Source: Armatimonadota bacterium (GTDB taxonomy: Bacteria; Sysuimicrobiota; Sysuimicrobiia; Sysuimicrobiales; Kaftiobacteriaceae). From it: a stretch of 64,000 nt of DNA. The position numbers were made by a program, and so were the translations under genes. The stretch covers positions 62,001-126,000 of the forward strand of contig JAVKHY010000007.1 of NCBI GenBank assembly GCA_031459765.1. Reading direction: 5' to 3'. Positions 20,915 to 41,801 of this stretch are shown one piece after another. The number at the start of each line of letters is the position of its first letter. The stretch's first letter is position 1. A model generated the notes under the pieces. It searched no databases. It was not told the DNA's origin and saw only the letters and a list, made by a program, of their open reading frames with translations.

Positions 20915-21910
20915 GTGAGGCAGCTCAGGTACATCATGCTCCTGGCCGTGGCACTGGCCGTCGCGCTGACGGCGGTGGCGCTGCCGCCGGTTCCGGCCGC
21001 AGGCCAGACGAAGCTGGTCATGGTGTTCGTACCCTCGCGCGAAACCGACATCATCCTGTTCAGCGGGCAGCAGATCGGCCGCATGCTCGGCGTGGCGCTG
21101 GGCGTGCCGGTCGAGGCGGTGGTCAGCACCAGCTACACCGCGGCCATCGAGGCGATGTGCGCGGGGAGGGCCGACATCGGAGCGCTGAACCCCTTCAGCT
21201 ACGTCCTGGCCCACCAGAAGTGCAACGTGGAGGTGGCCGCCATCTCCGTGCGCTTCGGCCTCCCCTACTACCGGGCGCAGATCAGCGTCCGCGCCGACGC
21301 CAACATCAACAAGATCGAGGACCTGCGGGGGAAGCGCTTCGCCTTTGTCGATCCCGCCTCGACCTCGGGGTATCTCTTCCCCGCGGCCATGCTGAAGAAG
21401 ATGGGCTACGATCCCGACCGCTTCTTCTCCCAGACCGTCTTCGCCGGATCGCATCCCAACGTGATCCTGGCCATCTACCGCGGGCAGGTAGACGGCGGGG
21501 CGACCTTCGAGGACGCCCGCACCAACATTCAGGCCCAGTTCCCCGACGTCATGCAGAAGGTCAAAGTGATCGGCTACACCAACCCCATCCCCAACGACAC
21601 CTGGAGCCTGAGCGCGCGGCTGAGCCCTGAGCTGCGGGCCAGGATCAAGGACCGTCTGCTGCGCATCGCCACCACCCCCGAGGGCAAGGAGGCCCTGCGC
21701 AACCTGTACAGCATCGAGGGGCTCACCGACCGGGTGGTGCTCAGCGAGGAGCAGGTGCGCAATCTCGGCATCCGCTTCGACGAGGAGACGCGGGCCCGGA
21801 TCGTCCGCGCCGGCGGGAAGGTGACCATCCCGATCGGCGACTGGTACTTCCAGCCCATCCGCGACGCCGCCACCTACCTTGGACTGGATCTGGCCAAGCT
21901 CGCGCGGTAG
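20915..21910 (+). CDS. phnD: Phosphate/phosphonate ABC transporter substrate-binding protein (PhnD family)
   Basis: This is the extracytoplasmic ligand-binding protein of a phn-type importer. It has a signal peptide of about 28 residues ending PVPAAGQ, with no lipobox cysteine. The PhnD signature segments are VSTSYTAAIEAMCAGRADIGALNP, KRFAFVDPASTSGYLFPAAM and GGATFEDAR. I chose the GTG at 20915, which has GGGAGGGGACAGG just upstream; a GTG at 20897 is the alternative. Phosphonate, phosphite or phosphate could each be the ligand, since no C-P lyase or phosphonatase gene is nearby to decide. phnC and phnE follow. Confidence 0.92.
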   Translation: MRQLRYIMLLAVALAVALTAVALPPVPAAGQTKLVMVFVPSRETDIILFSGQQIGRMLGVALGVPVEAVVSTSYTAAIEAMCAGRADIGALNPFSYVLAHQKCNVEVAAISVRFGLPYYRAQISVRADANINKIEDLRGKRFAFVDPASTSGYLFPAAMLKKMGYDPDRFFSQTVFAGSHPNVILAIYRGQVDGGATFEDARTNIQAQFPDVMQKVKVIGYTNPIPNDTWSLSARLSPELRARIKDRLLRIATTPEGKEALRNLYSIEGLTDRVVLSEEQVRNLGIRFDEETRARIVRAGGKVTIPIGDWYFQPIRDAATYLGLDLAKLAR

Positions 21911-37755: not shown

Positions 37756-38889
37756 GTGGCAGAGAAGATCATCGGTGTGCTCGGCGGGCTCGGCCCCTGG
37801 GCCACGGCGGACCTGTTCGAGAAGATTCTTCGCCTCACCCCGGCCCGGCGCGATCAGGATCACCTGCGCGTCATCATCGACAGCAACCCCAAGGTTCCGG
37901 ACCGCTCTGCGGCCATTCTGGGCCGGGGGGAGGATCCGACCCCCGAGCTCGTCGCCACGGCGCGCAACCTGGAGCGCGCCGGGGCCGACCTGCTCGTCAT
38001 CCCGTGTAACACGGCCCACGCCTTCTACGGGGCGATCGCCGCTGCGGTGAGGATCCCCGTGCTCCACATCATGGAAGAGGTGGCTGCCGAGGCGCGGCGC
38101 CTGATTCCCGGACTGCGCCGGGCGGGGGTGCTGGCCACGACGGCGACGATCGCCGCCGGGCTGTACCACCGCGCCTTCGAGGCGATCGGCGCGCAGGTGC
38201 TGACTTCGGACGAGGCCGCGCAGCAGATCGTGACCCGGCTGATCTACGGCGTCAAGGCCGGCCGGCGCGACGCGGAGGCCAGGGGGCAGGCCGCCGCGAT
38301 CGCCCGGGACCTGATCCGGCGGGGCGCTCAGGCGATCGTGCTGGGGTGCACCGAACTGCCGTTCCTCCTGCAGCCCGGGGAGGTCTCCGTCCCTCTGCTG
38401 GACAGCAACCTGATTCTCGCCCAGGCCGCGGTGCGCAGTGCCCTGGCGCCCGCCGGGGTGCCGCGGCGCCAGGGCTTGCCAGGGCAGAAGTCATCGGATA
38501 CACTACCGTCAGTCTGGCAGCCGGTGGCCCCCGCAGTCACCGCTGTTGCGCCTTGGAGGGGACGGGATGGCACCGAGGACCGCCAGGTCAGCTCGCACGA
38601 AGACCGGAGTGCGGCGCGGGGGACGCGTGACCACGGCAGCCGGGCCCAAGGCCGCGGGGGGGAAGAACGCCCGCCCGTCGGCGCCGGCACGGAGTCCGGC
38701 GAAGGCTCGTCCGCTCACGAAGAAGGAGCTGGCCGAGTTCCGCCGCCAGCTGGAGGAGGAGCGGACGCGCCTGCTCGAGGAACTCGAGGCCATGGAGGAG
38801 CACACCCCCGAGGTCGAGGATCAGGTGGGGATGGACATCGGGGGCGGCTACGACGAAGATCTCGCCGACGTGGCCAGCAACACCTTTGA
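37756..38889 (+). CDS. Aspartate/glutamate racemase family protein with read-through C-terminus
   Basis: The first roughly 240 residues form a complete Asp/Glu racemase domain: KIIGVLGGLGPWAT, catalytic Cys in VIPCNTAHAF and catalytic Cys in VLGCTELPFLL. It resembles amino-acid racemases of the YgeA group, and either D-Asp or D-Glu supply is possible. The GTG at 37756 has GGGAG 8 nt upstream. After the domain, near 38460, the frame meets no stop until 38889. It therefore overlaps the promoter and first 323 nt of the next gene in another frame, giving a tail of Arg/Gly/Glu-rich residues that looks non-native. Stop loss or an assembly error is possible. Confidence 0.78.
   Translation: MAEKIIGVLGGLGPWATADLFEKILRLTPARRDQDHLRVIIDSNPKVPDRSAAILGRGEDPTPELVATARNLERAGADLLVIPCNTAHAFYGAIAAAVRIPVLHIMEEVAAEARRLIPGLRRAGVLATTATIAAGLYHRAFEAIGAQVLTSDEAAQQIVTRLIYGVKAGRRDAEARGQAAAIARDLIRRGAQAIVLGCTELPFLLQPGEVSVPLLDSNLILAQAAVRSALAPAGVPRRQGLPGQKSSDTLPSVWQPVAPAVTAVAPWRGRDGTEDRQVSSHEDRSAARGTRDHGSRAQGRGGEERPPVGAGTESGEGSSAHEEGAGRVPPPAGGGADAPARGTRGHGGAHPRGRGSGGDGHRGRLRRRSRRRGQQHL
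38476..38504 (+). promoter_or_regulatory. Probable promoter of the traR/dksA-like gene
   Basis: TTGCCA (38476-38481), 17 bp, TACACT (38499-38504), about 60 bp before the ATG at 38567. It lies inside the 3' part of the racemase reading frame. Confidence 0.55.
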
Positions 38890-39097
38890 GCGCGAGAAGG
38901 GGCTGGCCCTGGAGAGCAGTGTGCAGCAGATGCTGGCCCAGGTGGAGGACGCCCTGAGCCGGATCGACGAGGGCACCTACGGTTTCTGCCAGCGCTGCGG
39001 CGATCCCATCGATATCGCGCGGTTGCGGGTGCTCCCCTTCGCCACCCTGTGCATCCGCTGCAAGGAGCTGGAAGAGCGGTCCAACGGCGGACGCTGA
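38567..39097 (+). CDS. TraR/DksA family zinc-finger protein
   Basis: This 176-residue protein has a basic, low-complexity Ala/Lys/Pro N-terminus (residues 1-48), a helical hairpin (KELAEFRRQLEEERTRLLEELEAM) and a C4 zinc finger CQRCGDPIDIARLRVLPFATLCIRC. This is the YteA/DksA-like architecture; relatives bind RNA polymerase in the secondary channel or act as stress proteins. GGAGGGG 5 nt before the ATG gives a strong ribosome binding site. The 3' end overlaps lspA by 49 nt. Its role in this organism is inferred only from the family. Confidence 0.9.
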   Translation: MAPRTARSARTKTGVRRGGRVTTAAGPKAAGGKNARPSAPARSPAKARPLTKKELAEFRRQLEEERTRLLEELEAMEEHTPEVEDQVGMDIGGGYDEDLADVASNTFEREKGLALESSVQQMLAQVEDALSRIDEGTYGFCQRCGDPIDIARLRVLPFATLCIRCKELEERSNGGR

Positions 39098-39519
39098 TCC
39101 TCCTGGGGACGGTGGTCGTGGCCGATCAGGCCGCGAAGCTCATCGTGGCCGCCCGGCTCCCCCTCGGCCACTCGGTGCCCGTGGTGCCGGGCCTGTTGGC
39201 GTTTACCCACACGCAGAATCGCGGCGTCGCCTTCGGGCTGCTGGACGGTGTCAGCCTGCTGGTCCCCGCCGCCGTGACCTTGACCCTGTTGTTGCTGCTC
39301 TTCTACAATGAGGCGCGGTGGATACGCCGCCCGATGACGCAGGCGGCGTTTGCCTTGCTGGGCGGGGGCGCGGTCTCCAATCTCACGGACCGCATCCGGG
39401 TCGGGGCCGTGGTCGACTTCATCGACGTGCACCGCTGGCCCGTCTTCAACCTGGCCGACGCCGCCGTCAGCGTCGGCGCGCTGCTGCTGGTCCTCACACT
39501 GCTGCGGGGTGAACGATGA
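39049..39519 (+). CDS. lspA: Lipoprotein signal peptidase LspA
   Basis: LspA is a membrane aspartic protease that cleaves prolipoprotein signal peptides. All family motifs are present: VADQAAK, TQNRGVAFGLL, VSNLTDRIRVGAVVDFIDV with the first catalytic Asp, and VFNLADAAVS with the second. There are four membrane segments. A GTG start at 39049 lies inside the traR-like gene; no in-frame start closer to its stop leaves a full first segment. It precedes an lgt homologue and rluD, the usual lspA-rluD order with lgt inserted. Confidence 0.93.
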   Translation: MHPLQGAGRAVQRRTLILLGTVVVADQAAKLIVAARLPLGHSVPVVPGLLAFTHTQNRGVAFGLLDGVSLLVPAAVTLTLLLLLFYNEARWIRRPMTQAAFALLGGGAVSNLTDRIRVGAVVDFIDVHRWPVFNLADAAVSVGALLLVLTLLRGER

Positions 39520-40298
39520 AGCCGATCCTGATCAGGCTCGGGCCCTTTCCCATCTCTTCGTTCGGCCTGTTCCTGTTGGGCGCGTTTCTGGTGGGCATCG
39601 CCGTGGTCCGCCGCCGGGGGAAGGAGATCGGGATCGACCCTTCCCGCATGCTGGATGCGGCGCTGTACATGATCATCGGCGGCATCGTCGCCGGTCGGAT
39701 CGGATACGTCCTGGCGAACCTTTCCGCCTTCGCCAGGGCTCCGCAGACCATGGTCACCATCTGGCGCGACTCCGGCCTGACCTTTTACGGCGCGCTGGCC
39801 GGAGCGGTGCTGGTCGGCGCCTTCTACGCCCGCCGACTGCAGGTGCCGCTGCGCGCCTTCCTGGACCTCTTCGCTCCGGCGCTGGCCCTGGGCTACGCCG
39901 TGGCCATGATCGGGGCGCTGCTGCACGGTCTGTACCTGGGCCGTCCGACCGGCGTCCCGTGGGCCGTCCAGATGTTTCTGGAGCGGCGCCATCCCACGCC
40001 CATCTACCTTCTGCTGGCCTCCCTCGGCAGTTACGCGGTGCTGCGGGCGCAGGAGCGGCGCGGGCCGCCAGCGGGCATGCTCTTCGTGCTGTGGGTGCTG
40101 CTGCTGGCGGTGAGCCGATTTGCCGTCGAGTTCTTCGTGGAGAGCCCGACCGTCGGTTCCTCCGGGCTCACCCTCGCCCAGGCGGTGAACGCCCTGGTCG
40201 CGGTGCTGGCCGTGGCAACGCTGGTTGTGCTGGCCCGGGTCGTCCCCGCACAGCCGGCGGCCGCGGCGGGTCCGCCGGAGATGCCTCCGGCGTCCTGA
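39516..40298 (+). CDS. lgt: Lgt-family membrane protein lacking key catalytic residues
   Basis: Length (260 residues), seven-segment topology, DSGLTFYGALAG, LGRPTG, HPTPIYLL and SRFAVEFF identify a prolipoprotein diacylglyceryl transferase homologue. Aligned to E. coli Lgt, position Y26 is F16, H103 is Y91, R143 is M131, N146 is A134 and E151 is L139. The equivalents of G154, R239 and E243 remain. In E. coli these lost residues are essential or important, so ordinary Lgt activity is doubtful. It is coupled to lspA by an ATGA overlap. It may be a diverged enzyme, a partner of another Lgt, or inactive. Confidence 0.82.
   Translation: MKPILIRLGPFPISSFGLFLLGAFLVGIAVVRRRGKEIGIDPSRMLDAALYMIIGGIVAGRIGYVLANLSAFARAPQTMVTIWRDSGLTFYGALAGAVLVGAFYARRLQVPLRAFLDLFAPALALGYAVAMIGALLHGLYLGRPTGVPWAVQMFLERRHPTPIYLLLASLGSYAVLRAQERRGPPAGMLFVLWVLLLAVSRFAVEFFVESPTVGSSGLTLAQAVNALVAVLAVATLVVLARVVPAQPAAAAGPPEMPPAS

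Positions 40299-41801
<1,503 letters not shown>

Follow-up and report, generated by a model that had tools for sequence, protein, structure and literature searches.

A catalytically degenerate Lgt homologue encoded directly after lspA in the Sysuimicrobiota: a putative pseudoenzyme of lipoprotein maturation

The gene located directly after lspA in a Candidatus Sysuimicrobiota MAG, here named lgt2, encodes a protein that has kept the fold of Lgt and lost most of the residues on which catalysis by the E. coli enzyme depends. The same genome encodes an intact paralogue, Lgt1, while orthologues of Lgt2 with the same losses are maintained under purifying selection across the phylum. Lgt2 has very probably ceased to be a PG:prolipoprotein diacylglyceryl transferase, and the best explanation, to which we assign a probability of about 0.55, is that it represents an Lgt pseudoenzyme acting as a putative non-catalytic helper that binds lipid or prolipoprotein. 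Lgt has been put forward as an antibiotic target. A family match alone is enough for its homologues to be annotated as enzymes, and Lgt2 is a trap for family-level annotation of this kind.

Genetic context of lgt2

The window, the whole stretch of 64,000 nucleotides analysed here, corresponds to C7:62001-126000 of a 2.81-Mb genome estimated to be 99% complete. Relatives at 67-68% identity are recorded as Terrabacteria group bacterium ANGP1, that is, Candidatus Segetimicrobium of the Candidatus Sysuimicrobiota. The genes of the string to which lgt2 belongs are the following:

38438..39097, plus strand: traR/dksA-type zinc-finger gene, upstream of lspA (open reading frame limits)
39049..39519, plus strand: lspA, signal peptidase II (PF01252, 118 bits; TIGR00077, 93.6 against a cut-off of 73.95)
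39516..40298, plus strand: lgt2, putative pseudo-Lgt of 260 aa with an ATG start, a membrane protein of the Lgt fold lacking the catalytic residues
40225..41259, plus strand: rluD-type pseudouridine synthase gene (open reading frame limits; the true start probably lies just 3' of lgt2)
41256..41801, plus strand: pyrR, last gene of the conserved string (open reading frame and conserved order)

The lspA gene is present in a single copy in the genome, and its start codon is uncertain. Its catalytic motifs are complete, as the preliminary description of this region had stated, including the aspartates of VDF (nt 39412) and FNLAD (nt 39445), and the aspartates of VxD and FNxAD are kept in all 42 loci of the phylum. 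In some genomes of family f4 (L035, L059, L061, L066) the NxxDR motif reads NxxER, with the catalytic aspartates retained. The stop of lspA overlaps the start of lgt2 by 4 bp (ATGA), which makes the translational coupling proposed in that description plausible.

Thirty-two loci show the order traR-lspA-lgt2-rluD-pyrR, and shorter forms occur mostly at the ends of contigs or of the stretches examined. Wherever a contig of the genomes carrying lgt2 spans both neighbours, the gene sits between lspA and rluD, and in most genomes of the phylum lgt2 overlaps lspA or lies close to it.

Family and fold of Lgt2

Lgt2 matches PF01790 with 132 bits (cut-off 24.9) over model positions 1-239 of 240, and the match is found in 40 of 40 orthologues. 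On the other hand, the protein scores 74.7 against the NCBIfam lgt equivalog TIGR00544, below the cut-off of 118.9. An AlphaFold (AF2) model built from a 40-row alignment reached a mean pLDDT of 89.7 and a pTM of 0.86. When this model was compared with the PDB using Foldseek, E. coli Lgt (5azb) was the sole significant match (E 2.3e-10, probability 1.00, TM 0.75/0.69), the next one having an E of 0.06; Lgt1 gave the same answer, E. coli Lgt, with an E of 1e-12.

Residues lost and retained

The residue map is based on an alignment of Lgt2 with Lgt from E. coli MG1655 and about 80 homologues. The positions that matter for the argument are the following:

39561..39563, plus strand: codon of F16, equivalent to E. 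coli Y26 by alignment
39768..39770, plus strand: codon of D85, an inserted aspartate, invariant in Lgt2 and absent from nearly all other Lgts
39786..39788, plus strand: codon of Y91, equivalent to H103 by alignment, with Y common in other Lgts (PMC13251419)
39906..39932, plus strand: degenerate signature motif M131-I-G-A134-L-L-H137-G-L139, which in E. coli reads R143-L-G-N146-F-I-N149-G-E151
40008..40010, plus strand: codon of L165, equivalent to E202, with L in 40 of 40 Lgt2 proteins
40116..40118, plus strand: codon of R201, equivalent to R239, with R in 40 of 40 Lgt2 proteins
40137..40139, plus strand: codon of V208, equivalent to R246 by alignment

This alignment bears out the replacements listed in the preliminary description (Y26 by F16, H103 by Y91, R143 by M131, N146 by A134 and E151 by L139) and the retention of G154, R239 and E243 as G142, R201 and E205. 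The claim that only these three remain went too far, as the equivalents of R73, G99, G104, D129, G145, H196, P197 and Y201 are kept as well. The loss of the polar network is in turn wider than had been noted, with N149 replaced by H137, E202 by L165, Y235 by L197 and R246 by V208. Measured against what is expected of a functional Lgt, Lgt2 therefore retains R239 and G154, but has no R143, no Y26, neither Asn nor Cys at position 146, and none of Glu, Cys or Asp at position 151. Replacement of H103 by Tyr is uninformative on its own, because normal Lgts carry Y, W or F there, with Y or W in Firmicutes and Actinobacteria (PMC13251419).

Conservation among the orthologues follows the same pattern. 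Position 143 is M in 35 of 40 Lgt2 proteins, A, V or T in the other five and R in none; position 146 is A, T, S or G, never N or C; and position 151 is L in 38 and M or V in two. The residue at Y26 has been replaced in 37 of 40, three members of family f5 holding Y. By contrast, G154 and R239 are G and R in all 40, and position 243 is either E or D. As the losses at R143, N146 and E151 are common to all 40 orthologues of the phylum, they are not due to chance. Several formerly polar positions are now fixed hydrophobics (M131, L139, L165), while position 137 varies among H, Y, A, S, T and G. In addition, Lgt2 has its own conserved residues: D85, a one-residue insertion preceding the HGGL-like segment, W83 and R201 are fixed (100%), Y91 nearly so (98%), and S14, Y127 and R158 are also strongly conserved. 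Judged from these sequences, Lgt2 is more reminiscent of a folded protein whose surface is under constraint than of a relic.

The consequences of such replacements have been studied in E. coli Lgt, where R143A/E/K, Y26A/F/Q, G142A and E151A/Q led to loss of activity (PMC4728403); N146A is also dead, and E151A is tolerated without Lpp (PMC13251419). Lgts of monoderm or Terrabacterial origin frequently do not function in E. coli (PMC13251419). Since R143A/E/K, Y26F and N146A are dead in E. coli, standard Lgt activity of Lgt2 is very unlikely. The R143A protein is about 8 C more thermostable and still binds phospholipid (PMC4728403, PMC13251419), and is a precedent for an Lgt that has lost its activity but still folds and binds lipid.

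Lgt1 and the lipoprotein pathway

The preliminary description had argued that, if this were the only Lgt, lipidation would have to work differently, and had proposed searching the genome for a second lgt and for lipobox proteins. A second PF01790 gene (G000:C6:54072-54770, 195 bits) encodes Lgt1, which carries Y, H, R, N, N, E, G, R and D at positions 26, 103, 143, 146, 149, 151, 154, 239 and 243, and passes TIGR00544 with 143 bits against the cut-off of 118.9. One Lnt is encoded in the genome (255 bits against 132.9), and Omp85/BamA is present, which indicates a diderm cell. Two versions of a lipobox scan, covering about 432 kb, gave two and three convincing proteins. As control residues were at least as frequent at the same position, the count was set aside and the individual sequences were used. 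With an intact Lgt1, one LspA and one Lnt, the standard lipoprotein pathway is complete without Lgt2, and a different chemistry based on an only Lgt is unnecessary.

Another observation in that description, that the signal peptide of the PhnD-type phosphonate-binding protein (domain at about 21026-21724, plus strand) has no lipobox, is right but uninformative, because no convincing lipobox was found among the other solute-binding proteins of the genome with a readable N-terminus. Solute-binding proteins without a lipobox are usual in diderms.

Lgt1 proteins of the phylum (e.g., L001:1477-2229) mostly hold T, S or L at the position of Y235, and D at that of E243. Y235 has been reported as essential in E. 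coli Lgt.

Distribution across the phylum and selection

Among the 43 Sysuimicrobiota genomes sampled, Lgt2 is present in 40, an Lgt1-type gene in 38, and both in 35. The two proteins form separate well-supported clades in the tree. Lgt1 is intact in 37 genomes, to which a divergent copy in G004 has to be added (L057:174-911, with Y26H, H103F, N149I and a long branch); the G004 assembly contains neither Lgt2 nor lspA. The other two genomes without Lgt2, G035 and G036, belong to genus g19 and are 98-99% complete. In both, lspA is directly followed by rluD, and Lgt1, LspA and RluD are kept, so this genus has lost lgt2 cleanly and LspA is independent of Lgt2 there.

No intact Lgt1 was found in G010, G013, G017, G030 and G041, the last of which is 94% complete. 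The completeness figures add up to about four missing genes per family expected in 43 genomes, and since MAG incompleteness alone predicts such gaps, the missing Lgt1s are unremarkable. When the Lgt1 neighbourhood was examined in relation to the gap in G041, no neighbour gene was conserved widely enough to serve as a guide.

lgt2 is under purifying selection. Of 13 pairs compared, 12 gave an omega between 0.04 and 0.23, close to the 0.12-0.23 of Lgt1; the remaining one, G039/G040 of family f5, whose Lgt2 branches are long in the tree, gave 0.43. The 40 orthologues and these omega values rule out local decay or a sequencing artefact. Two further candidates for Lgt2, L006 from Clostridiales and L077, a third copy in G033, were left out as weak matches on long branches of other Lgt types. 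The latter (L077:2487-3236) is a third Lgt homologue of another type, with a RIGCFLNSDCYG motif.

Ancestry of Lgt2

In about 250 genomes from outside the phylum the Lgt2 profile scored no higher than 213 bits, compared with at least 291 inside. The best 60 outside matches are nearly all Cys-type Lgts, characterized by the motif GRxGCxxxGCCYG, many of them beside lspA and/or rluD, and 59 of these 60 keep R143. Lgt2 itself does not show this motif, reading A-M-I-G-A-L-L-H-G-L-Y-L-G instead. In the tree, Lgt2 (100/100) groups with the Cys-type Lgts, and Lgt1 with those of the Asn type, E. coli Lgt included, the split being supported by 94/91 with a bootstrap that is not fully settled. Lgt2 thus descends from an lspA-adjacent Cys-type Lgt, which implies that the active site was lost in place. 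In the most parsimonious scenario, the active site disappeared from the operon Lgt where it stood, and Lgt1 did the chemistry. As Cys-type Lgts elsewhere share the adjacency to lspA, this arrangement is ancestral and alone no proof of partnership.

A similar arrangement has been found in three genomes of a second lineage (G169, G291 and G292). There the gene next to lspA encodes an Lgt carrying R143L/M, N146S, E151F and R239S, and the one after it an intact Cys-type Lgt:

L228:234-3581, minus strand: lspA, degenerate lgt and Cys-type lgt
L229:2-3348, plus strand: lspA, degenerate lgt and Cys-type lgt
L227: lspA, degenerate lgt and Cys-type lgt

The degenerate Lgt of G169 is placed elsewhere in the tree than Lgt2, so that its loss was probably independent, and this second lspA-adjacent dead Lgt probably arose on its own. 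A sample survey for more R143-less Lgts yielded none further among the loci read. The same three genomes also encode long Lgt homologues (L230, L231, L232), with frames of about 400 aa, a motif like RxGCxxAHDHxG, an insertion following the signature motif, and R143 and R239 kept.

Function of Lgt2

With its fold kept, its catalytic residues lost, an intact paralogue in the same genome and purifying selection acting on the gene, Lgt2 has the features of a pseudoenzyme paralogue, its inactivity being deduced from sequence. In all probability it is unable to transfer diacylglycerol from PG. The ancestor would have been a lipid-transferring Cys-type Lgt already within the lspA-lgt-rluD string. In the ancestor of the Sysuimicrobiota, an Asn-type Lgt1 would have provided or taken over diacylglyceryl transfer, presumably having been acquired before Lgt2 lost catalysis. 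The polar network of R143, N146, E151, E202 and R246 would then have been lost and turned hydrophobic, while the seven-TM fold and the arms would have been retained, together with a lipid-accessible cavity as judged from the fold. Lgt2 may now keep phospholipid or (diacylglyceryl-)prolipoprotein close to LspA, or perhaps tune LspA or Lgt1. The preliminary description had anticipated a regulatory or chaperone paralogue in case a second Lgt existed; this fits everything found, although the role itself is one that we infer. That Lgt2 serves lipoprotein maturation as a membrane helper without catalytic activity is moderately probable, and placing that putative role at LspA is more tentative, at slightly under even odds. 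The lspA neighbourhood, inherited from an enzyme ancestor, is weak evidence for such a partnership, to which the dead lgt after lspA in the other lineage adds slightly. Against the helper reading count the retention of R239 and E/D243 and the invariant new D85, which make another activity possible, as well as the five genomes without an intact Lgt1, G041 among them, and the clean loss of lgt2 in g19, where LspA does without it.

That Lgt2 might have been repurposed outside lipoprotein maturation, serving another envelope function as a membrane protein that binds lipids or helices, and stayed in the operon by inertia, is unlikely. The adjacency to lspA is older than the loss of catalysis, and G035 and G036 lost lgt2 with the rest of the string intact, both of which would suit this idea; nevertheless, in the apparently independent second lineage, too, the dead copy immediately follows lspA, and the close packing or overlap of lspA and lgt2 in most genomes also speaks against it. 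Rather less likely is a rebuilt site for another lipid donor or acceptor, perhaps formed by D85-x-G-L-x-[FY]-Y with R201 and E/D205, through which Lgt2 would modify prolipoproteins or their lipid from a different donor. This would give the phylum two lipidation chemistries. The constancy of D85, W83, Y91 and R201, the strong purifying selection and the different substrate or mechanism proposed for other R143-less Lgts (PMC13251419) are in its favour. However, apart from R239/E243 the polar network has become hydrophobic or variable (M131, A/T134, L139, L165, V/M208), the motif has gained no new conserved Cys or Lys, position 137 varies, and lgt2 is dispensable in genus g19.

It is very improbable that Lgt2 is a working Lgt whose catalytic residues come from shifted positions. 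The full-length fold, the operon with lspA, the retention of R239 and E243 and the five genomes without an intact Lgt1 would be expected in that case, but the signature-motif alignment of the 40 orthologues offers no alternative Arg, 37 genomes have an intact Lgt1 (plus the divergent one of G004), the genomes without Lgt2 retain Lgt1, and incompleteness alone predicts about as many gaps. Equally hard to sustain is the idea of a degenerating leftover without function: evolution is faster in f5 and the gene has gone from G035 and G036, whereas elsewhere in the phylum the remaining families keep it under constraint, all omega values outside f5 being low. Lgt2 as a pseudoenzyme with a putative helper role consequently remains our preferred reading.

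Nearly a whole uncultured phylum therefore carries an "Lgt" that should not work as one. It is a clear-cut natural example of how an enzyme encoded in an operon can lose catalysis where it stands when a second enzyme is available, be kept under selection and later be lost in one genus. That a dead Lgt follows lspA immediately in two lineages hints, in a way open to testing, at an unrecognised non-catalytic component of the lipoprotein pathway.

Comparison with known Lgt proteins

Lgt2 shares with E. coli Lgt (PDB 5azb/5azc) the seven-TM Lgt fold, PF01790, the arms, G154, R239, E243, D129 and HP-x-x-Y, and differs from it in the replacement of Y26, R143, N146, N149, E151, E202 and R246. Cys-type Lgts (N146C, E151C) are its closest relatives outside the phylum, with the same lspA/rluD neighbourhood and usually Y at the H103 position; they keep Y26, R143 and R246, whereas R143 and R246 are gone from every Lgt2 and Y26 from 37 of the 40. 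The degenerate lgt of G169, G291 and G292 resembles lgt2 in its place directly after lspA, in the loss of R143 and in the intact Lgt of the same genome, but it has R239S, N146S and E151F, keeps Y26 and E202, and is followed by the intact Cys-type lgt.

Lgts lacking R143 and R239 were described in 2026 from Deinococci, Acidimicrobiales, Anaerolineales, Acidobacteriales and Myxococcales, and other substrates or mechanisms have been proposed for them as possible alternative enzymes (PMC13251419). The invariant R143 is gone in this subgroup as in Lgt2, whereas R239, absent there, is kept in Lgt2; for the R143-less Lgt2, the ancestry and the co-resident Lgt1 are set out in the present analysis. Finally, MSMEG_5408 from M. 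smegmatis is a second Lgt with altered catalytic positions beside the main Lgt. In contrast to Lgt2, only Y26H and N146C have been described for it, and low activity rather than none is presumed (PMC13251419).
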